Shown here: positions 15,813-61,833 of the stretch, one piece after another
How the letters are laid out: each line of letters opens with the position of its first letter
Numbering within the stretch: position 1 is the stretch's first letter
From: Deltaproteobacteria bacterium
Lineage (GTDB): Bacteria > Desulfobacterota > BSN033 > UBA1163
Direction: 5' to 3'
DNA: 64,000 nt
Assembly (NCBI GenBank): GCA_020059605.1
Contig: JAGVBT010000028.1
Coordinates: 1-64,000 of the forward strand
Made by a program: the position numbers and the translations under genes
The notes under the pieces: generated by a model
Databases searched by the model: none
The model's input: the letters and a program-made list of their open reading frames with translations, nothing else
Told to the model about the DNA's origin: nothing

Positions 15813-16424
15813 ATGAAAAGAAGGATACGGTTTAAACTCTTTCGGAACCGGGTGAGAAAGAAGCTGTTTCGTTTGCCCGAAGAACCCCTCTATACCAAGG
15901 ATTTCCTGGGAGACCGTTTTCAGATCGGGGACCACACGTATGGGAAGCCGAAGGTGGTCTCGCACGGGGAAGGGGCGTCGTTGAAAATCGGCAAATACTG
16001 CTCGATTGCAACAGGGGTCACCATCTTTCTCGGAAGCGAACACCGGGTCGATTGGGTCAGCACCTATCCTTTTCCCTTCCTGTGGGAAGAGGCCAAGGGG
16101 ATTGAAGGACATCCAGCCACCAAAGGGGACGTGGTGATTGGGAATGATGTGTGGATTGGTTATGGAACCACCATCCTTTCCGGTGTGACCATAGGGGATG
16201 GAGCGGCCATCGGAGCGTGTTCTTTAGTGATTAAAGATATCCCGCCTTATGCGATTGGAGCCGGAAATCCCGTTCAAATCATCCGATATCGCTTTGATGA
16301 GGAAACAATCAAAACATTGCTCAGGATCAGATGGTGGGACTGGCCGGATCAACAGATCAGGGAAAAAATCCATCACATTTGCAGTCCCTCCATCGACGAA
16401 TTTATCAACCGGTTTGGATCATAG
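15813..16424 (+). CDS. CatB-like hexapeptide acetyltransferase
   Basis: Left-handed beta-helix acetyltransferase of the xenobiotic-acetyltransferase (CatB/VatD) type, about 203 residues. Landmarks are the turn region SLKIGKYCSIATGVTIFLGSEHRVDWVSTYPF and then VVIGNDVWIGYGTTILSGVTIGDGAAIGACSLVIKDIPPYAIGAGNPVQIIRYRF. The HRVDWVSTYPF loop is typical of the CatB branch used in O-antigen and capsule acetylation. ATG 15813 is chosen because GGAGAC lies 6 nt upstream; the TTG at 15771 has no ribosome site. Confidence 0.82.
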   Translation: MKRRIRFKLFRNRVRKKLFRLPEEPLYTKDFLGDRFQIGDHTYGKPKVVSHGEGASLKIGKYCSIATGVTIFLGSEHRVDWVSTYPFPFLWEEAKGIEGHPATKGDVVIGNDVWIGYGTTILSGVTIGDGAAIGACSLVIKDIPPYAIGAGNPVQIIRYRFDEETIKTLLRIRWWDWPDQQIREKIHHICSPSIDEFINRFGS

Positions 16425-16434
16425 GTCGTCTCCG

Positions 16435-17364
16435 ATGGATGTATCCATCATTATCGTCAACTGGAATACGAAAGACCTCTTGGTTCCGTGCCTGAGGTCG
16501 ATTTATCGGAAATCGGGTAATGTGAAAGCCGAGGTCTTCGTGGTTGATAACGGGTCCATGGACGGAAGCAAAGAAGCGGTGGAGGCTGAATTCCCTGAAG
16601 TGATCCTGATCGATAATCCGATGAATTTCGGATTTGCCAAAGCGAGTAATCAGGGGATCGATTTATCGAAAGGGAAATATGTCCTTCTTCTCAATCCGGA
16701 TACTGAGTTAAAGGAAGGGGCCATTGCAACCCTGAACACTTTTCTGGATCACCATCCCGAGGCGGGAGTGGCGGGGGCACAGCTCTTGAATGCGGATGGC
16801 GCCAAGCAGAACGCCATCGCCAATTTTCCATCCTTAGCCACAGAGCTGCTGAATAAAAGTCTGCTGAGGCGGTTGTTTCCGGATCGTTTTCCCGGAAAGG
16901 AAAGAGAATATGCGCTGCCGATTGAAGTCGATTCGGTGATCGGGGCCTGTATGATGGTGAGACGAGAGGCGATGGAGGAGGTTGGACTGCTGGACGAAGA
17001 CTATTTTCTCTTCCTGGAAGAGACCGATTGGTGTTACCGGATGAAGAAAGCGGGATGGAAGGTCTATCATGTCCCCGGGGCAGAGGTCATTCACTACCAG
17101 GGAAAGGGCGCGGAGCGGGATAAAAAGAGGGCGAAGGTTGAATATTACCGCTCCCGTTACCTTTTTTTCAAAAAGAATCGAGGGTTTTGGGAGAGGTTTT
17201 TTCTCCGGATCGGGTTGATGATAAAATTGTGTTTTGAGTTTTTTGCCATGGCGTTCGTCTGTATCCTGACCGGGTTTGCAGTAAAAAATTGGAGAAGAAA
17301 GTTGACCCTGTACGCTTATCTCCTCTGGTGGCACCTCAAAAAGGGGACAGGCTACTTTTTATAA
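16435..17364 (+). CDS. GT2 glycosyltransferase, rhamnosyltransferase-like; C-terminus supplied by a repeat element
   Basis: GT-A enzyme of the WbbL/RfbF type. It has DVSIIIVNWNTKDLLVPCL, VVDNGSMDGS, NPMNFGFAKASNQGI, metal motif LLNPDTEL and the acceptor region VIGACMMVRREAMEEVGLLDEDYFLFLEETDWCYRMKKAGW. A hydrophobic stretch near the end (about residues 265-290) may tether it to the membrane. ATG 16435 is 10 nt after the previous stop; the frame runs further upstream only by overlapping the acetyltransferase. The last residues (KKGTGYFL) and the TAA lie at the left end of repeat element 1 (17338-17457), so the original C-terminus has been replaced. Confidence 0.84.
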   Translation: MDVSIIIVNWNTKDLLVPCLRSIYRKSGNVKAEVFVVDNGSMDGSKEAVEAEFPEVILIDNPMNFGFAKASNQGIDLSKGKYVLLLNPDTELKEGAIATLNTFLDHHPEAGVAGAQLLNADGAKQNAIANFPSLATELLNKSLLRRLFPDRFPGKEREYALPIEVDSVIGACMMVRREAMEEVGLLDEDYFLFLEETDWCYRMKKAGWKVYHVPGAEVIHYQGKGAERDKKRAKVEYYRSRYLFFKKNRGFWERFFLRIGLMIKLCFEFFAMAFVCILTGFAVKNWRRKLTLYAYLLWWHLKKGTGYFL

Positions 17365-17457
17365 AAAACTATTTCATTTTGATATAATGGATGATATTTT
17401 GTGAAATCAACATAAATGAACGAATGGAATTCTTAAAAAGTAGCCTGTCCCCTTTTT
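17338..17457. mobile_element. RAYT-type REP element 1, non-autonomous (120 bp)
   Basis: Inverted ends of 23 bp with the core GGGGACAGGCTAC: 17338-17360 and, reversed, 17435-17457. The inside (74 bp) is AT-rich with no gene. The left end lies inside the GT2 gene 3' end and gives it its last codons and stop. The right end is 9 nt before the AGGAGG of the next gene. The same ends bound element 2 and the transposase-bearing element 3, so it is probably mobilised in trans. Confidence 0.85.
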
Positions 17458-17476
17458 CTTTTTATAGGAGGATTTT

Positions 17477-18487
17477 ATGGTCAGTATAGCTGTAGTGGGA
17501 GCGGGAGCGTGGGGGAAAAATCATATCCGCGTCTTTTCTGAAATTCCCAATGTACGGTTGAAATACATCTGCGATTCCGACCCGTCCAGACTGACTCAAC
17601 TCCAGAGATTCTATCCCCAGCCCAAAATGGTGAAAGGAATCTCCTCAATCTTAGAAGACCCTGAGATCAAAGGGATTGTGATCGCCTCTTCCGCAGTTTC
17701 CCACTATCCTCTGGCCAAAGAGTCATTACTGGCGGGAAAAGATGTGCTGGTTGAAAAACCTATGGCCATGAGGTCAGAAGAGGCGAAAGAGATGGTGGAG
17801 ATCGCGGAGAAGAAGGGAAGGATTCTCATGGTGGGCCATCTGCTTGTTTACCACCCGGTGGTGGACAGGCTGAGGGAAATGGTCCGCTCCGGAGCAATGG
17901 GAAAGATCTATTATATTTATACTCAACGCGTTAACCTTGGGGTCATCCGCCAGGATGAAAATACCCTCTGGTCCTTTGCCCCTCATGACCTTTCGGTTAT
18001 CCTTTATCTCATCGATGAAGAACCGGTTGCCGTAACCGCTCACGGGGAAAGCTATATCCAGAAAGGTATTGAGGATGTGGTCTTCGTCAGTCTTCGATTT
18101 AACGATGGGAAAATGGCGAACATCCATTTAAGCTGGCTGGACCCTCATAAGCTGAGAAAGGTTACCATTGTGGGGTCGGAGAAAATGGTTGTTTTTGATG
18201 ACATGGAATCCTCTGAAAAACTGAAGATATATGACAAAGGGGTCAAGAACCTCTCTTACGACACCTACGGGGAATACCTGAGTCTGAGGTTTGGTGATAT
18301 CACCATTCCGAATATCAAGATGGTCGAACCCCTCAGGGCAGAGGCCGACCATTTCATCCAATGTCTTGAATCGAGAAAAGAGCCGAAAACAGGGGGCCGG
18401 GATGGTTTAAGGGTGATCAACATTCTGATGGCAGCCCAGCAGTCTTTAAAAGAGAAGGGTGTTCCGGTCAAGATAGGACAGGAATGA
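17477..18487 (+). CDS. Gfo/Idh/MocA oxidoreductase, WbpB/WlbA-like
   Basis: NAD(P)-dependent sugar dehydrogenase. The Rossmann motif is VAVVGAGAWGKNH-like at residues 4-16 (IAVVGAGAWG), and the family signature is LVEKPMAM (about 95-102). In the WbpB/WlbA group it oxidises C3 of UDP-GlcNAcA before transamination. That role is supported here by a WbpD-like N-acetyltransferase next door and a 2-epimerase further on. AGGAGG at 17466-17471 sets the ATG. RAYT-type elements lie on both sides (ending 17457 and starting 18494), so the module is physically split by repeats. The specific substrate is inferred from neighbours only. Confidence 0.8.
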   Translation: MVSIAVVGAGAWGKNHIRVFSEIPNVRLKYICDSDPSRLTQLQRFYPQPKMVKGISSILEDPEIKGIVIASSAVSHYPLAKESLLAGKDVLVEKPMAMRSEEAKEMVEIAEKKGRILMVGHLLVYHPVVDRLREMVRSGAMGKIYYIYTQRVNLGVIRQDENTLWSFAPHDLSVILYLIDEEPVAVTAHGESYIQKGIEDVVFVSLRFNDGKMANIHLSWLDPHKLRKVTIVGSEKMVVFDDMESSEKLKIYDKGVKNLSYDTYGEYLSLRFGDITIPNIKMVEPLRAEADHFIQCLESRKEPKTGGRDGLRVINILMAAQQSLKEKGVPVKIGQE

Positions 18488-18493
18488 TGGGAT

Positions 18494-18565
18494 AAAAAGG
18501 GGACAGGCTACTTTTTTCTCAAAAACAATAGTGTTCATCGCAAAAAAGTAGCCTGTCCCCTTTTT
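18494..18565. mobile_element. RAYT-type REP element 2, non-autonomous (72 bp)
   Basis: Same 23-bp inverted ends as element 1 (18494-18516 and 18543-18565), with only 26 bp between them. It could form a long hairpin in the transcript of the operon. It lies 6 nt after the oxidoreductase stop and 21 nt before the acetyltransferase start. Confidence 0.85.
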
Positions 18566-18586
18566 TGGGGTGAGAGGGAGAGAAAA

Positions 18587-19159
18587 ATGAAAAAGAATTA
18601 TTTTATTCATCCTACAGCCGTCGTTGATGAACCTGTGGAGATTGGCGAAGGGACCCGGATCTGGCACTTCTCCCATGTTATGTCGGGTGCAACCATTGGG
18701 GAACGATGTGTCATCGGACAGAATGTTTTTATTGCCTCCGGTGCCGTCCTTGGGAAAAACATCAAAGTTCAAAACAATGTCTCGGTATTTAAAGGCGTTG
18801 TACTGGAGGATGATGTTTTTTGCGGGCCATCCATGGTTTTTACGAATGTCTTCAACCCCCGGAGCTTTATTTCGAGGATGAAAGAGATCCGGCAAACACG
18901 GGTCAAAAAGGGGGCGACGATCGGAGCGAATGCCACGATTGTCTGTGGAAATACGGTCGGGCAGTATGCCTTGATCGGGGCTTCTTCCGTTGTCACGAAA
19001 GATGTTCCGGATTACGCCCTGGTTTATGGCAATCCGGGAAAAGTGAAGGGTTGGGTTTGTCAGTGCGCAGAGGAGATCAAATTCCGTGCGGGAAAATCGG
19101 AATGCAAAGCCTGTGGCAAGCGCTACCAAAAAGATCGCACCGGGGTAAGATTGATCTAA
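18587..19159 (+). CDS. WbpD/WlbB-like sugar-nucleotide N-acetyltransferase
   Basis: Left-handed beta-helix N-acetyltransferase of 190 residues. GEGTRIWHFSHVMSGATIGERCVIGQNVFIASG is the signature start of the WbpD/WlbB family, which acetylates the 3-amino group of UDP-GlcNAc3NA. The helix runs to about residue 150 ([27 protein letters not shown]). The tail CQCAEEIKF...CKACGKRY has two Cys pairs, looking like a small zinc ribbon. GAGAGGGAGAG precedes the ATG. Elements 2 and 3 flank the gene (21 nt before the start, immediately after the stop). Confidence 0.85.
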   Translation: MKKNYFIHPTAVVDEPVEIGEGTRIWHFSHVMSGATIGERCVIGQNVFIASGAVLGKNIKVQNNVSVFKGVVLEDDVFCGPSMVFTNVFNPRSFISRMKEIRQTRVKKGATIGANATIVCGNTVGQYALIGASSVVTKDVPDYALVYGNPGKVKGWVCQCAEEIKFRAGKSECKACGKRYQKDRTGVRLI

Positions 19160-19891
19160 AAAAAGGGGACAGGCTACTTTTTAGAGGAGTTTTAGATGCC
19201 AAGAATTTCAAGAGGATTGGTTGATGAATCAATATATCATGTCATCAATCGAGGAAATGGTGGCCAAATAGTATTTCATAAAGATAAAGATTATGAGGCA
19301 TTTATAGAATTAATGAAAAAAGCAAAGGACCGTTATGAAGTTAAGATTTTCGGTTATTGTCTTATGCCCACCCATTTTCATATCATTGTAATGCCCCATC
19401 TTGCTGAAGATTTAAGCAGATGGATGCAATGGCTAATGACAAGTCATGTTCGCCGATATCATCGGCATTATGAAACGAGAGGTCATGTTTGGCAGGGACG
19501 TTATAAGAGCTTTCTTATTCAAAAGGACAATCATTTATTGATTGTGATGCGTTATGTGGAAGGGAATCCAAAACGAGCTGGGTTGGTTAACTCAACGAAG
19601 GACTGGTTGTGGTCGTCAAGCCAAGAATCATTGGGAATGAGAAATCGTGTTTTGATTGATACCATTCCTTTAGAATTACCTGCAGATTGGGAAGATTATG
19701 TGAACGAACCGGTTACTGCAAAAGAATTAGAAAGAATTCGACAAAGTGTTATTCGACAGGCTCCGTATGGAGATGAATCTTGGAGATTGCAATTAAGCAA
19801 AGATTTGGGATTAGAATCCACAGTTAGGCCAATTGGAAGGCCAAGGAAAATTTATGCCGGGTAATAAAAAAAGTAGCCTGTCCCCCTTTTT
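19160..19891. mobile_element. RAYT-type element 3, autonomous, carries the transposase (732 bp)
   Basis: The same inverted ends as elements 1 and 2 (19160-19182, and 19868-19891 reversed) enclose a Y1/HUH transposase gene. The right end differs from the other two copies by one extra C (CCCCC instead of CCCC), making it 24 bp. That base decides the reading frame into the following epimerase gene. The left end starts at the end of the WbpD-like gene's stop codon (TAA 19157-19159). Confidence 0.88.
19196..19864 (+). CDS. REP-associated tyrosine transposase (RAYT, Y1/HUH)
   Basis: Single-strand DNA transposase of 222 residues with the Y1_Tnp fold. The HUH motif is H60-F-H62 in MPTHFHIIVMPH, and the catalytic tyrosine is Y120 in MRYVEGNPKRAG; both are intact. 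RGHVWQGRYKSFLI is a typical family block. GAGGAG stands 7 nt before the ATG. Its composition is visibly more AT-rich than the neighbouring glycan genes, in keeping with a mobile origin. It probably acts on the flanking GGGGACAGGCTAC ends and could move elements 1 and 2. Its 3' end overlaps the proposed start of the 2-epimerase. Confidence 0.92.
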   Translation: MPRISRGLVDESIYHVINRGNGGQIVFHKDKDYEAFIELMKKAKDRYEVKIFGYCLMPTHFHIIVMPHLAEDLSRWMQWLMTSHVRRYHRHYETRGHVWQGRYKSFLIQKDNHLLIVMRYVEGNPKRAGLVNSTKDWLWSSSQESLGMRNRVLIDTIPLELPADWEDYVNEPVTAKELERIRQSVIRQAPYGDESWRLQLSKDLGLESTVRPIGRPRKIYAG

Positions 19892-21014
19892 TAAGGTTGT
19901 TACCATTGTGGGCGCAAGACCTCAGTTCATTAAAGCCGCTGCGGTCAACCGGGCCATCGCAGCGTTCAATAAGAATGGAAGGCAAATCGAGGAGATCCTC
20001 ATCCATACAGGCCAGCACTACGATTACCTGATGGATCGGGTTTTTTTTGAAGAACTGGAGATTCCCAAACCCCATTACCACCTCGGAGTCGGGTCTGGCT
20101 CACATGGCAAACAAACCGGGATCATGCTTGAAAGAATCGAGGAGGTACTACAAAAGGAAAAGCCTGGCCTGGTTCTTGTTTACGGCGATACGAATTCGAC
20201 CCTCGCCGGAGCTCTGAGCGCAGCGAAAATGCATCTCCCGGTAGCCCATGTGGAAGCAGGCCTGAGAAGCTATAACCGGGATATGCCCGAAGAGATCAAC
20301 CGCGTCCTGACGGATCATCTATCCACGTTTCTCTTCTGTCCGACCCAACAGGCGGTTAAAAATTTATCGAAAGAGGGAATCAAGCCGTCTCAGGGAAAGC
20401 TTGTTGAGAATGTCGGCGATGTCATGTACGATTCGATCCTTTACTATTCCAGGATCGCCGAAAAAAAATCCACCATCCTTCATGATTTGAACTTGGCCAA
20501 TCCGCAATCCGAAATCCGCAATCCGCAATATTACCTCGCCACTCTCCACCGGGCCGAAAATACGGATGATCCCCGAAGGTTAACCTCCATTTTAAAGGCC
20601 TTGAATCAACTTGGAAAAGAGGCGCCCGTCGTCTTCCCCCTCCATCCCCGGACAAGGAAAATGATGGAAATCTTCGATCTTTTTAAAAAGAACCGGCGGA
20701 TTCGATTCATCGAACCGGTCTCCTATTTCGATATGCTTCTCCTGGAAAAAAGGGCCAGGGCCGTCCTGACCGATTCGGGAGGAGTCCAGAAGGAGGCTTA
20801 CTGGTTCAAGGTCCCCTGCTTCACCTTAAGGGAAGAGACGGAATGGGTGGAGACGGTCCGCAGCGGATGGAACAGGTTGGTCGGGGTGGATGTGAAGAGA
20901 ATCGCGGCAGGGGTGCGGCACAATCCAAGGAGGAACCCTGCGGGAGAGAAGATGTTCGGAGATGGGACGGCGAGTAAAACAATTGTTCATCGATTATGGA
21001 GGGCTTTCCATTAG
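19854..21014 (+). CDS. wecB: Non-hydrolysing UDP-GlcNAc 2-epimerase (WecB/WbpI type), start codon inside a transposable element
   Basis: Epimerase that converts UDP-GlcNAc (or its 2,3-diacetamido uronate form, as WbpI) to the manno epimer. VVTIVGARPQFIKAA, HTGQHYDYLMDRVFFEELEIP, YGDTNSTLAGALSAAK, HVEAGLRSYNRDMPEEINR and LTDSGGVQKEAYWF are all family motifs. Homologues start MKVVTIVGARPQF; here that Met is absent and the frame continues upstream into element 3. The best start is ATG 19854 inside the element, with AAGGA 6 nt upstream, overlapping the transposase stop and adding the residues PGNKKSSLSPFF. TTG 19833 is possible but weaker. An earlier standard start was probably lost on insertion. 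Confidence 0.85.
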   Translation: MPGNKKSSLSPFFKVVTIVGARPQFIKAAAVNRAIAAFNKNGRQIEEILIHTGQHYDYLMDRVFFEELEIPKPHYHLGVGSGSHGKQTGIMLERIEEVLQKEKPGLVLVYGDTNSTLAGALSAAKMHLPVAHVEAGLRSYNRDMPEEINRVLTDHLSTFLFCPTQQAVKNLSKEGIKPSQGKLVENVGDVMYDSILYYSRIAEKKSTILHDLNLANPQSEIRNPQYYLATLHRAENTDDPRRLTSILKALNQLGKEAPVVFPLHPRTRKMMEIFDLFKKNRRIRFIEPVSYFDMLLLEKRARAVLTDSGGVQKEAYWFKVPCFTLREETEWVETVRSGWNRLVGVDVKRIAAGVRHNPRRNPAGEKMFGDGTASKTIVHRLWRAFH

Positions 21015-29380: not shown

Positions 29381-29770
29381 ATGCCTATCCGGAATCAGAT
29401 TGTTGCGCTGCTGATCGGCTTTGGAATGTTCTTCCTCATCATCGAGCTGGTCAGGAGAAGGAAATTGAGGGAGGAATATTCCTGGCTGTGGCTCATGACC
29501 GTATCGGTCATTCTCATTTTCGCTTTGTGGTTCGATTTTTTAAAGTGGGTCACCTCCCTGATCGGTGCGATCGCTCCGTCTTCGACGATCTTTATGTTCG
29601 CCTTCCTGTTCCTGATCTTCATCAGCCTCCATTTTTCCGTGGTCATTTCAAGGTTGACGGACCGGAACCGGGAACTGGCCCAGCAATTCGCCCTTCTGGA
29701 ATTGGAATACAGGGAGATCAGGAAAAAAGTGGATTCTTCTCATGGGAAGCAGTCTCCCGGGGCGGATTAA
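29381..29770 (+). CDS. DUF2304 small membrane protein
   Basis: 129-residue protein with three hydrophobic helices (about 6-22, 33-53, 63-88) and a charged C-terminal coiled-coil-like tail (LTDRNRELAQQFALLELEYREIRKKV). The charged YSWLW stretch after helix 1 is typical of DUF2304. These proteins commonly follow a GT2 polyprenyl-phosphate glycosyltransferase, as here, and may anchor or assist it. AAAGGAGGAGAG sets the ATG. Function is not established. Confidence 0.75.
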   Translation: MPIRNQIVALLIGFGMFFLIIELVRRRKLREEYSWLWLMTVSVILIFALWFDFLKWVTSLIGAIAPSSTIFMFAFLFLIFISLHFSVVISRLTDRNRELAQQFALLELEYREIRKKVDSSHGKQSPGAD

Positions 29771-29903
29771 CCCTAATACTGTTCAGTTAGGCTGTCCCCG
29801 TTCACCTCGGTTGCGAGTCGAAGCGACCTGAGCTTGTCGAAGGGTGCGTCGCTAAGCCGTTTATGCTTCGACAAGCTCAGCACGAACGGGTTAAATAAAC
29901 AGC
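29769..29903. repeat. TTCGACAAGCTCA-type repeat, copy 1
   Basis: Begins at the DUF2304 stop with AACCCTAATACTGTTCAG and contains GAGCTTGTCGAAGG and its inverse CTTCGACAAGCTCAG. The first 80 bases match the reverse complement of 37593-37672 at about 74 positions (hand alignment). It fills the spacer where the plus-strand glycan locus converges on the minus-strand cysN gene. Confidence 0.8.
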
Positions 29904-37445: not shown

Positions 37446-37675
37446 GACACTTTTGTTCATTAAAGCCGTTCGTGCTGAGCCCTTCCTTCTACTTCGCTCA
37501 GGACATTCGGTAAAAAACCGTTCGCCCTGAGGCTCTCGAAGGGTGAACGGTTTGCTCAGGACAGGCTTGTCGAAGTATGAACGGCGTGGCTGCGCACCCT
37601 TCGACAAGCTCAGGTCGCTTCGACTCGCAACCGAGGTGAACGGTGGAAGTCCCACTGAACAGTATTAGGGTTATG
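37446..37675. repeat. TTCGACAAGCTCA-type repeat, copy 2 (compound)
   Basis: Several related units occur here: CCGTTCGTGCTGAGC, AACCGTTCGCCCTGAGG, CGAAGGGTGAACGG, CTTGTCGAAG and CCTTCGACAAGCTCAGG, partly inverted to one another. 37593-37672 is the reverse complement of repeat copy 1 (about 74 of 80 bases). The repeat fills most of the 326-bp spacer between rluB and the polyprenol-kinase-like gene; nothing else is seen there. Confidence 0.8.
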
Positions 37676-40150: not shown

Positions 40151-40184
40151 GGTCCAATTGAAGATGGGTTGCGTCCAACGGCAA

Positions 40185-40350
40185 CGAGGCCCGTTTCGGT
40201 TATCGGTAACGGTTAGGTGATAACCCCATTAGGAATTGCAGTCGTTGCCACTCGAAACCGAGGGGGGCATGATTTCTAACGGGGTAAAAAATTAAAAGAC
40301 GATCAACGTAACCTTTTACAAACGATACGGGCTTCGTAACCGTAACCGTT
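40185..40350. repeat. Internally deleted S23 cassette derivative, with a nested repeat
   Basis: The left end AACGAGGCCCGTTTCG then GGTTATCGGTAACGGTTA matches the left end of the S23 cassettes at 59091 and 61366. The right part (AAAAGACGATCAACGTAACC to CGATACGGGCTTCGTAACC, about 40294-40341) matches their right end, including the bases of the S23 gene's last codons. The gene itself is missing. In its place is a smaller inverted element (40226-40285, CCCCATTAGGAA / TTTCTAACGGGG) related to the one before hfq. Confidence 0.7.
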
Positions 40351-41166: not shown

Positions 41167-41197
41167 CTAACGTGTTACAAAAAATGAAGATTACGTG

Positions 41198-41298
41198 TAA
41201 CGGTTACGAGACCGGTTTCGGTTATCGGTAACGGTTGTGTGATTATGATTTGAAGACGTCACCTGCAACCTTCTATGAACGATACGGGCGTCGTAGCC
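41198..41298. repeat. Deleted S23 cassette derivative (ends only, about 101 bp)
   Basis: The left end TAACGGTTACGAGACCGG then TTTCGGTTATCGGTAACGG and the right end CGATACGGGCGTCGTAGCC match the S23 cassette ends. The 40 or so bases between (GAAGACG...CAACCTTCTATGAA) correspond to the right inner flank. No part of the S23 gene body remains. Confidence 0.65.
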
Positions 41299-58318: not shown

Positions 58319-59080
58319 ATGCTGACCTTTGCTTCTATTCTTTTTGGGGCGGTGGTGGGGAGTTTTTTGAATGTGTGCATTCACAGGCTCCCTAAAGAAG
58401 AATCCATTGTGAGGCCGGGATCTCACTGTCCCGAGTGCAAGACCCCGATTCGATTTTATGATAATATTCCGTTGATCAGTTATCTATTGTTGGAGGGAAA
58501 ATGCCGGTATTGCGGGGTCTCGATCTCCCTGCAATATCCCCTCGTTGAAGGAATCACTGCTTTAGGTTCGCTTCTCGTTTTCGTCAAATTCGGATTTTCT
58601 CTCAATTATTTATTTTACTTCTTTTTTGTCGCCGCCCTCATCGTTATTACCGTCATCGACCTTTACCATCAGATCATTCCGGATGTGATCAGTCTTCCGG
58701 GTATTGTGATCGGACTCCTGGGGTCGCTGAGTATTTCTCCGATCACTTTCTCGACCTCTTTGATCGGTGCGATTGCGGGAGGGGGAAGCCTTTTTTTGGT
58801 GGCCGCGGGCTACCAGTGGCTGTTCAAAAGAGAAGGGATGGGGGGAGGGGATGTGAAACTTCTGGCCATGATCGGGTCTTTCCTGGGCTGGAAATCCGTG
58901 ATCCTGACCATTCTCTTAAGCTCATTCATCGGATCCATCATCGGCATTGCCGTCATGCTCATCAAGGGGAAAGATTTTAAATACGCCATCCCCTTCGGGC
59001 CCTTTTTATCCATGGGGGCCGTCATTTCGCTTTTTATCGGGGAAGAATTGATAAGGTGGTACCTTTATTTTAACAGGTAA
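58319..59080 (+). CDS. pilD: Prepilin peptidase / N-methyltransferase
   Basis: Eight-helix membrane aspartic protease of 253 residues that cuts and methylates prepilins at the cytoplasmic face. The zinc-binding pairs are CPECKTPI and CRYCGVSI (about 40-68), the first catalytic Asp is in VIDLYHQIIPD and the second in the GxGD motif GMGGGDVKLLAM. The three pilins at 47236-48613 are its natural substrates. The cassette containing a broken S23 gene starts 10 nt after its stop. Confidence 0.93.
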   Translation: MLTFASILFGAVVGSFLNVCIHRLPKEESIVRPGSHCPECKTPIRFYDNIPLISYLLLEGKCRYCGVSISLQYPLVEGITALGSLLVFVKFGFSLNYLFYFFFVAALIVITVIDLYHQIIPDVISLPGIVIGLLGSLSISPITFSTSLIGAIAGGGSLFLVAAGYQWLFKREGMGGGDVKLLAMIGSFLGWKSVILTILLSSFIGSIIGIAVMLIKGKDFKYAIPFGPFLSMGAVISLFIGEELIRWYLYFNR

Positions 59081-59090
59081 AGGTAAGGGC

Positions 59091-59560
59091 AACGAAGCCC
59101 GTTTCGTAAATCGGTAACGGTTACGTAAAATGAAAAGGATAACAAGTTTTCGGGATATTTGGAAGTTTATCAGGGCACCTATCAGGGATGTATTGAAGTA
59201 ATGACAAAGATTATTCCAAATATCCCTGATATTGAAAACAATGACCTGAAAGGCCAACTTAGACGCTCGGTCAAAGCTATCCCCAGATTGATTGCTGAAG
59301 GTTATGCCAAAAGGCACCAAAGACGTGGATTTCAGAAATATCTCGACGATGCCATGGGGGAATGTAACGAAACGATTGTTGGATTGGAACAATGTAAGGA
59401 TTTATATGGGGCGAGTGTAGATAGAAATTTATATGAAGAGTTAATTGATTTGTATGATAAATCCGGAAGACAGCTCTATAACTTGTCATCTGCATGGAGT
59501 GGATTCAAAAGACGATAAACGTAGCCTTCTCTAAACGATGCGGGCCTCGTTACCGTTACC
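59091..59560. mobile_element. S23 four-helix-bundle cassette, copy A (470 bp)
   Basis: Left end AACGAAGCCCGTTTCG (59091-59106), then ATCGGTAACGGTTACGTAAA up to the S23 ATG. Right end CGATGCGGGCCTCGTTACC (59536-59554) is the inverse of the left end with a few changes. Same organisation as copy B (61366-61833), and an internally deleted relative at 40185-40350. It lies between pilD and the pilS-like gene, ending 17 nt before the latter's ATG. Confidence 0.75.
59130..59518 (+). pseudogene. Four-helix-bundle protein (S23/IVP family), N-terminal frameshift
   Basis: ATG 59130 starts MKRITSFRD, but an extra AT at about 59155-59156 shifts the frame relative to copy B. The remaining 119 codons (from TTG 59159, LEVYQGTYQGCIEVMTKIIP...) are intact and match copy B at about 105 of 119 residues. 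Translation might still start at TTG 59159, without a ribosome site. Members of this family are the proteins of 23S rRNA intervening sequences and relatives of Avd; here no rRNA is near. Confidence 0.7.
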
Positions 59561-61350: not shown

Positions 61351-61365
61351 AGAACCAAATCGATT

Positions 61366-61833
61366 AACGGTTACGAAGCCCGTTTCGTCATTCGGTAACG
61401 GTTACGTAAAATGAAAAAGATAACAAGTTTCCGGGATTTGGAAGTTTATCAAGGAACCTATCAAGGATGTATTGAAGTAATGACAAAGATTATTCCAAAT
61501 ATCCCTGATATTGAAAAAAATGACCTAAAAAACCAGCTTAGACGTTCTGTCAAGGCTGTCCCAAGATTGATTGCCGAAGGGTATGCCAAAAAGCATCAAA
61601 AACATGGTTTCCAGAAATATCTCGATGATGCCATGGGTGAATGTAACGAGACTATTGTGGGATTAGAACAAAGTAAAGATTTATATGGTGAGAAAGTTGA
61701 CAAGGTACTATGTGAAAAGCTCATTGATCTGTATGATAAATCTGGAAGACAACTCTATAATTTATCGTCTGCGTGGAGCAAATTTAAAAGACGGCTAACG
61801 TAAACTTTTTCTAACGAAACGGGCCTCGTAGCC
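61366..61833. mobile_element. S23 four-helix-bundle cassette, copy B (468 bp)
   Basis: Left end AACGGTTACGAAGCCCG then TTTCG (61366-61387), with a second TAACGGTTACG just before the gene. Right end CGAAACGGGCCTCGTAGCC (61815-61833), which matches the inverse of the left end at 17 of 19 positions. In the same orientation as copy A, and on the other side of the pilS-like gene. Confidence 0.78.
61411..61803 (+). CDS. Four-helix-bundle protein (S23/IVP family), intact copy
   Basis: 130 residues, all alpha. MKKITSFRDLEVYQGTYQGCIEVMTKIIPNIP opens helix 1; the family blocks LRRSVKAVPRLIAEGYAKK and FQKYLDDAMGECNETIVGLEQSKDLY and SGRQLYNLSSAWSKFKRRL follow. Related proteins form homopentamers (as S23 and the reverse-transcriptase accessory Avd). 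No Shine-Dalgarno lies upstream because the left repeat abuts the ATG. The gene interrupts the spacing of the pilS-like and pilR genes. Function unknown. Confidence 0.85.
   Translation: MKKITSFRDLEVYQGTYQGCIEVMTKIIPNIPDIEKNDLKNQLRRSVKAVPRLIAEGYAKKHQKHGFQKYLDDAMGECNETIVGLEQSKDLYGEKVDKVLCEKLIDLYDKSGRQLYNLSSAWSKFKRRLT

Follow-up and report, generated by a model that had tools for sequence, protein, structure and literature searches.

TIRtrons (TIRYT elements) have been defined as elements bounded by terminal inverted repeats (TIRs) that share GGGGWSAS (Di Nocera et al., 2013; PMC3733652). HUH and Tyr are hallmarks of the RAYT/TIRYT transposases (PMC3733652), and most TIRYTs fall in subclass 2.1 (PMC6006769). 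The termini of REPs often provide the TAG stop codon of flanking open reading frames, and some REPs are located at predicted N-termini (PMC3733652). Similarly, in-frame insertions into protein-coding genes have been described for Rickettsia palindromic elements (RPEs) (PMC10969869, PMC3733652). In searches of open-access full texts, we found no report of a host gene that starts inside a RAYT. While mobile repeats at gene ends were known before, what appears to be new at the locus described here is a gene that lacks a start of its own and whose best start is situated inside a transposase gene.

The window, that is, the whole stretch of 64,000 nucleotides that was analyzed, originates from contig C111 (JAGVBT010000028.1) of the draft genome of a Deltaproteobacteria bacterium (4.38 Mb; GCA_020059605.1; here called G000). 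Profile searches revealed the gene order glycosyltransferase, Gfo/Idh oxidoreductase, hexapeptide acetyltransferase, RAYT transposase and epimerase, and the window thereby contains part of a surface-sugar gene cluster. A RAYT element fills the tiny gap between the acetyltransferase stop TAA (19157-19159) and the second codon of the epimerase (AAG, 19893). The elements of this region and the epimerase are the following.

17343-17452, no strand assigned: short element of the same family (E1), whose left arm encodes the C-terminal end of the upstream glycosyltransferase together with its stop (arm motif scan)
18499-18560, no strand assigned: E2, another short family member that lacks a transposase, situated between the Gfo/Idh and acetyltransferase genes, with CCCC on both arms (arm motif scan)
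19160-19182, plus strand: left TIR, AAAAAGGGGACAGGCTACTTTTT, touching the acetyltransferase stop TAA (sequence reading and arm motif scan)
19196-19864, plus strand: intact open reading frame of 222 amino acids for a RAYT/TIRYT tyrosine transposase (Y1_Tnp) with HFH and YVEGNPKRAG stretches (PF01797)
19866-19892, plus strand: right TIR, composed of an A-run, GTAGCCTGTCCCCC and a T-run, which in frame reads KKSSLSPFF (sequence reading)
19854-21014, plus strand: epimerase with a putative element-derived leader of 13 residues, MPGNKKSSLSPFF (PF02350, 2.9e-108; TIGR00236, 327 bits)

With scores above the cut-offs of both profiles (cut-off of 210 bits for TIGR00236; 362 bits with a cut-off of 30.6 for PF02350), the epimerase is assigned by its sequence to the non-hydrolysing UDP-GlcNAc 2-epimerase family of the WecB/WbpI type. 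The nearest solved structures are those of WbpI-type UDP-diNAcGlcA 2-epimerases (PDB 8sxv/8sxy/8sy9/8syd), and these best matches together with the upstream Gfo/Idh and acetyltransferase genes make UDP-2,3-diacetamido-glucuronate a candidate substrate.

The transposase reading frame matched PF01797 with 3.6e-15 and 56.6 bits (cut-off 23), as expected for a Y1 (HUH) tyrosine transposase, and it scored 71.3 bits with the NCBIfam model REP_Tyr_transpos (NF047646), which is under the curated cut-off of 80. Its HFH and YVEGNP stretches are what we take to be the places of the HUH and Tyr hallmarks. The element spans from the A-run ahead of GGGGACAGGCTAC (19165) to the T-run past GTAGCCTGTCCCCC (19873-19886), and the motif GGGGACAG is present at 19165-19172 with its complement on the right arm. 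In the window, the arm motif was found seven times at two or fewer mismatches, compared to 0.97 matches expected, and none of 100 shuffled sequences reached seven; the arm motif is not due to chance. The whole genome of G000 harbors six elements of the family, that is, five short TIR pairs and the RAYT copy. The locus resembles TIRtrons in that a RAYT-type Y1 transposase lies between TIRs with a motif fitting GGGGWSAS and in that small families of transposase-less TIR pairs occur (PMC3733652, PMC6006769), and the element fits this class of TIR-associated tyrosine transposases. Of the six copies in the genome, three occupy consecutive gene gaps of one cluster within 2.6 kb (17343-19892), which looks like local spread.

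The original prediction stated that the epimerase has lost its canonical Met, that the right arm abuts the conserved KVVTIV and that an ATG inside the element reads into the gene. All of this can be read directly from the DNA: codon 19890-19892 is TTT where orthologues have Met, TTTTTT is followed by AAG (19893) GTT GTT ACC ATT GTG GGC, and an ATG among the last RAYT codons, with AAGGA upstream and a frame that overlaps the RAYT stop, leads in frame into the epimerase.

19843-19847, plus strand: Shine-Dalgarno (SD)-like AAGGA in the stretch that encodes the C-terminal GRPRK of the transposase (AAGGAA, -5.3 kcal/mol, spacing of 5 nt)
19854-19856, plus strand: proposed start codon of the epimerase, within the RAYT 3' end (sequence reading; same ATG in the related genome G004)

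This ATG is out of frame with the RAYT gene, the stop TAA of which is found at 19862-19864, and the overlap with the RAYT gene end amounts to 11 bases (ATGCCGGGTAA). The frame ATG CCG GGT AAT AAA AAA AGT AGC CTG TCC CCC TTT TTT AAG stays open to 21014. Apart from this ATG, the in-frame starts in the vicinity are limited to TTG 19833, which lies upstream in the RAYT gene, and GTG 19908, in KVVTIVG. The SD score of -5.3 kcal/mol at 19854 is close to the -6.4 at the native site of the relative G015 and weaker than the -6.9 to -9.3 of the operon neighbors. It is moderate and, taken alone, weak evidence, because -5 kcal/mol or better is reached by about 24% of the 1224 plus-strand ATGs that were scanned in the window. 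By chance, an ATG would be in frame in about one in three cases; the in-frame ATG is lifted above chance by the loss of the native start and the recurrence of the same arrangement in G004. The SD-like bases at the same time encode the GRPRK tail of the transposase, so that use of this start would amount to an exaptation. Matches to known structures begin at residue 22 of 8syd_A, 27 of 3ot5_A and 26 of 3dzc_A, and therefore a short N-terminal leader ahead of the first strand would be compatible with folding.

Of 40 related genomes searched for the epimerase, 22 gave a match. Twelve genomes with a close orthologue (69-75% amino acid identity in the best segment; G000 included) were compared and 10 more distant ones were left out. 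Relatives had been proposed as the place to look for the original start, and in 10 of the 12 an ATG or GTG is indeed present directly ahead of the conserved Lys or two codons ahead of it. The exceptions are G000 (TTT) and G004 (TTG without Shine-Dalgarno), a MAG of the same genus (VGSS01000001.1; Deltaproteobacteria bacterium K_DeepCast_250m_m2_302). Among 17 family genomes, this RAYT subfamily occurs only in G000, G004 and G015 (100, 91 and 68% amino acid identity), the next match being at 35%, and each of the three has a single copy located in the acetyltransferase-epimerase gap (L022, L014 and window 19160-19892). In the case of G004, the element occupies the same site, carries AAGGA and ATG as in G000 together with CCCCC, and likewise can be read in frame into the epimerase. 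The junction there exceeds that of G000 by 9 bases and contains CCCCTTTTT twice, apparently by tandem duplication; the putative leader would read MASNKKSSLSPFFPFL. In the case of G015, the gap contains a related RAYT element, the right arm of which has four Cs and is followed by GGAG and the gene's own ATG; its own start was retained and therefore no fusion exists. The site is free of the element in G001, G005, G008 and G016, where stop and start are separated by 0 to about 17 bases. The element is thus absent from the site in most relatives compared, which indicates transposition itself at most indirectly. Among 67 RAYT loci surveyed in genome contigs, only L108, which is that of G004, adjoins a WbpI-type epimerase. 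If the elements of G000 and G004 have a single origin, G004 is partly dependent evidence and not a fully independent case.

Alternatively, the epimerase might start outside the element, at GTG 19908 or at some non-standard codon around 19890. A weak AAGG precedes the in-frame GTG 19908 by 10 nt, and many REPs at predicted N-termini, including REP/GTAG cases, have been argued to be extragenic with initiation downstream (Di Nocera et al., 2013; PMC3733652). However, a start at this GTG would remove the conserved first strand KVVTIV, which in this form or as variants is found in 12/12 orthologues and which is preceded by the orthologue starts. Also, its SD is weaker and more distant than the one at 19854 (-3.7 kcal/mol at 10 nt; the TTG of G004 scores +1.5 kcal/mol). 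In contrast to the N-terminal REP/GTAG cases (PMC3733652), the epimerase has no native start left downstream of the element. We consider initiation outside the element unlikely.

The original prediction had interpreted the CCCCC of the right arm as a compensating change, meaning that a fifth C arose after insertion and restored the frame. Its premises are correct. Both other elements in the window, E1 and E2, have four G/C, and with one C fewer the ATG would be out of frame with the epimerase. In the RAYT element, the left arm has four and only the right arm has five, and in a phylum draw of 395 genomes (without G004) the five-C pattern was rare, being found in 2/395 compared to 17/395 for four Cs. 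However, the interpretation itself was not supported. The element of G004 has five Cs on both arms, as do short elements on contig C5 of G000 and contig C33 of G004, which are away from the epimerase. Including the right arm in G000, these account for the seven five-C arms among 49 arms in seven family genomes (41 with four, one with three). Five Cs, rare at large, thus seem to be a standing variant in the genus, shared with G004, and no compensating insertion is needed, which makes such an event quite improbable. In the simplest reading, CCCCC was already present when the element arrived, and in G000 it is the left arm, with four, that deviates. The fifth C may also have arisen earlier under selection, before both lineages acquired the element, and have been copied to the short elements later.

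A gene that recently lost its own start could be a young pseudogene, and the insertion might have killed the epimerase, leaving the open frame as a remnant. The native start and SD are gone and the dS of 0.31 for the RAYT against G004 permits a fairly recent event, but the body of 373 codons is intact, G004 is in the same state with an intact frame, and the only other epimerase match in G000 is a 32% paralogue (contig C81). The low dN of 0.19 versus a dS of 1.74 for the epimerase between G000 and G004 also speaks against decay, though much of this signal may predate the insertion. A dead gene is therefore judged to be quite unlikely. Although both assemblies are drafts and homopolymers are error-prone, an assembly or homopolymer error at the fused junction is highly improbable, as five Cs and a junction that keeps the frame are also found in G004, a separate assembly (VGSS01000001.1), and as both arms of the contig C5 element in G000 carry five.

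Pairwise dS values between G000 and G004 were 0.31 for the RAYT, 0.69 for recA, 1.48 for the acetyltransferase, 1.74 for the epimerase and 2.27 for the glycosyltransferase, with saturation for Gfo/Idh. The RAYT value is far below those of the flanks, and therefore the element is younger than its flanks, yet it is found at the same site with a near-identical junction. Plain vertical inheritance of one insertion is disfavored, given a dS of 0.31 for the RAYT versus 0.69 for recA and 1.48 to saturation for the flanks, and given that G008, which is nearer to G004 in recA (dS 0.31), lacks the element there. Homologous transfer of a longer piece fits poorly as well, for the high identity between G000 and G004, judged by eye, starts and stops at the element ends. 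Either two separate insertions struck this site, or the element passed from one lineage to another with site fidelity. In the RAYT tree, the G015 copy is placed beside the G000/G004 pair with a support of only 73/86, and an alternative tree that joins an Elusimicrobia copy with this pair was not rejected (p-AU 0.39). For G015, one old insertion and separate insertions would both fit the tree.

Other gene ends have been remade by the same element family, and in this the family is like REP/GTAG elements, which overlap with gene ends at stops or N-termini (PMC3733652). The glycosyltransferase (16249-17364) takes its C-terminus and stop from the E1 arm (17338-17360), ending in HLKKGTGYFL. Its C-termini read WWHLKKGTGYFL in G000, WWHLKGCPEGMGLK in G004 and KWHLKFCPAEMGLRAIS in G015, each directly before the stop, and the last residues in G004 are HLKGCPEGMGLK versus HLKKGTGYFL in G000. 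KRGQATF from an arm forms the last residues of a MurJ (L058) and of a GT9 heptosyltransferase (L065). In L074 (3-1547, minus strand; contig C141 of G015), a short transposase-less element has, in frame, taken the place of a membrane protein's start and of about 20 of its codons; the orthologues of this protein begin about 20 codons upstream. The native start replaced there was apparently a GTG, and L074 probably is a second N-terminal capture by this family. Thirteen genes start just past an arm and read outward, and three of them, the epimerases of G000 and G004 and L074, are without a supported start of their own. These 13 were chosen by eye from 19 rows, six being dropped where the opposite strand looked like a real gene. 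Among 22 arms outside the family, no further clear N-terminal start capture was found.

In 10 of 49 arms, the stop codon of a long open reading frame touches the outer A-run (L001, L007, L011, L022, L055, L068, L176, L178, L179), which suggests insertion at, or selection for, stop codons. Also, the window contains a second dispersed repeat family of about 53 nt with the core CGTTTCGGTTATCGGTAACGGTT (40169-40248, 41191-41243, 59077-59156 and 61358-61437), and similar strings also occur close to the L001 element and ahead of the L015 gene. Furthermore, an inverted pair of 109 nt (29768-29876 and 37565-37673) is 89% complementary over a distance of 7.7 kb, and one of its arms contains an imperfect match to the element end (29787-29799).

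Of the original prediction, the proposal that the epimerase took its start from the RAYT element stands, given the absent native Met, the in-frame SD and ATG and the same arrangement in G004, and only the compensating C lacks support. Capture of the start is well supported by comparison of the sequences, and translation of the epimerase most likely begins within the RAYT 3' end. We infer the following order of events. A TIRtron-type RAYT element, its right arm most likely already with five Cs on arrival, would have come to lie between the acetyltransferase stop and epimerase codon 2, with loss of the native start. Ribosomes would bind via the AAGGA inside the sequence encoding the C-terminal GRPRK of the transposase and most likely initiate at ATG 19854, and ribosomes that finish at the overlapping RAYT stop would probably assist this initiation by translational coupling. 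The product would be the epimerase extended by the 13-residue element-made leader, presumably active as an enzyme.

Unlike TIRtrons as described in the sources cited here, the locus thus has the only good start of a host gene in the transposase 3' end (PMC3733652, PMC6006769). The situation is similar to that of RPEs in that a mobile palindromic repeat would be translated as part of a host protein, some RPEs being found at the N-terminus, but RPEs are in-frame inserts within open reading frames whereas here a transposase-bearing element provides SD and ATG at its edge (PMC10969869, PMC3733652).

A further-reaching idea is that the RAYT 3' end is a transferable unit of ribosome-binding site plus start codon which ties translation of the epimerase to the upstream transposase gene and so locks a single-copy transposase into the operon, in a gap that was invaded more than once; we regard this as speculative and rather doubtful. 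RAYT genes are usually single-copy and long-lived, and the reason why hosts keep them is an open question. If the capture is true, a host gene that can be translated only from inside a RAYT would be one concrete reason to keep the RAYT. It would also mean that small mobile repeats can replace the 5' ends of genes, and gene callers would miss such genes or annotate them with ordinary N-termini.
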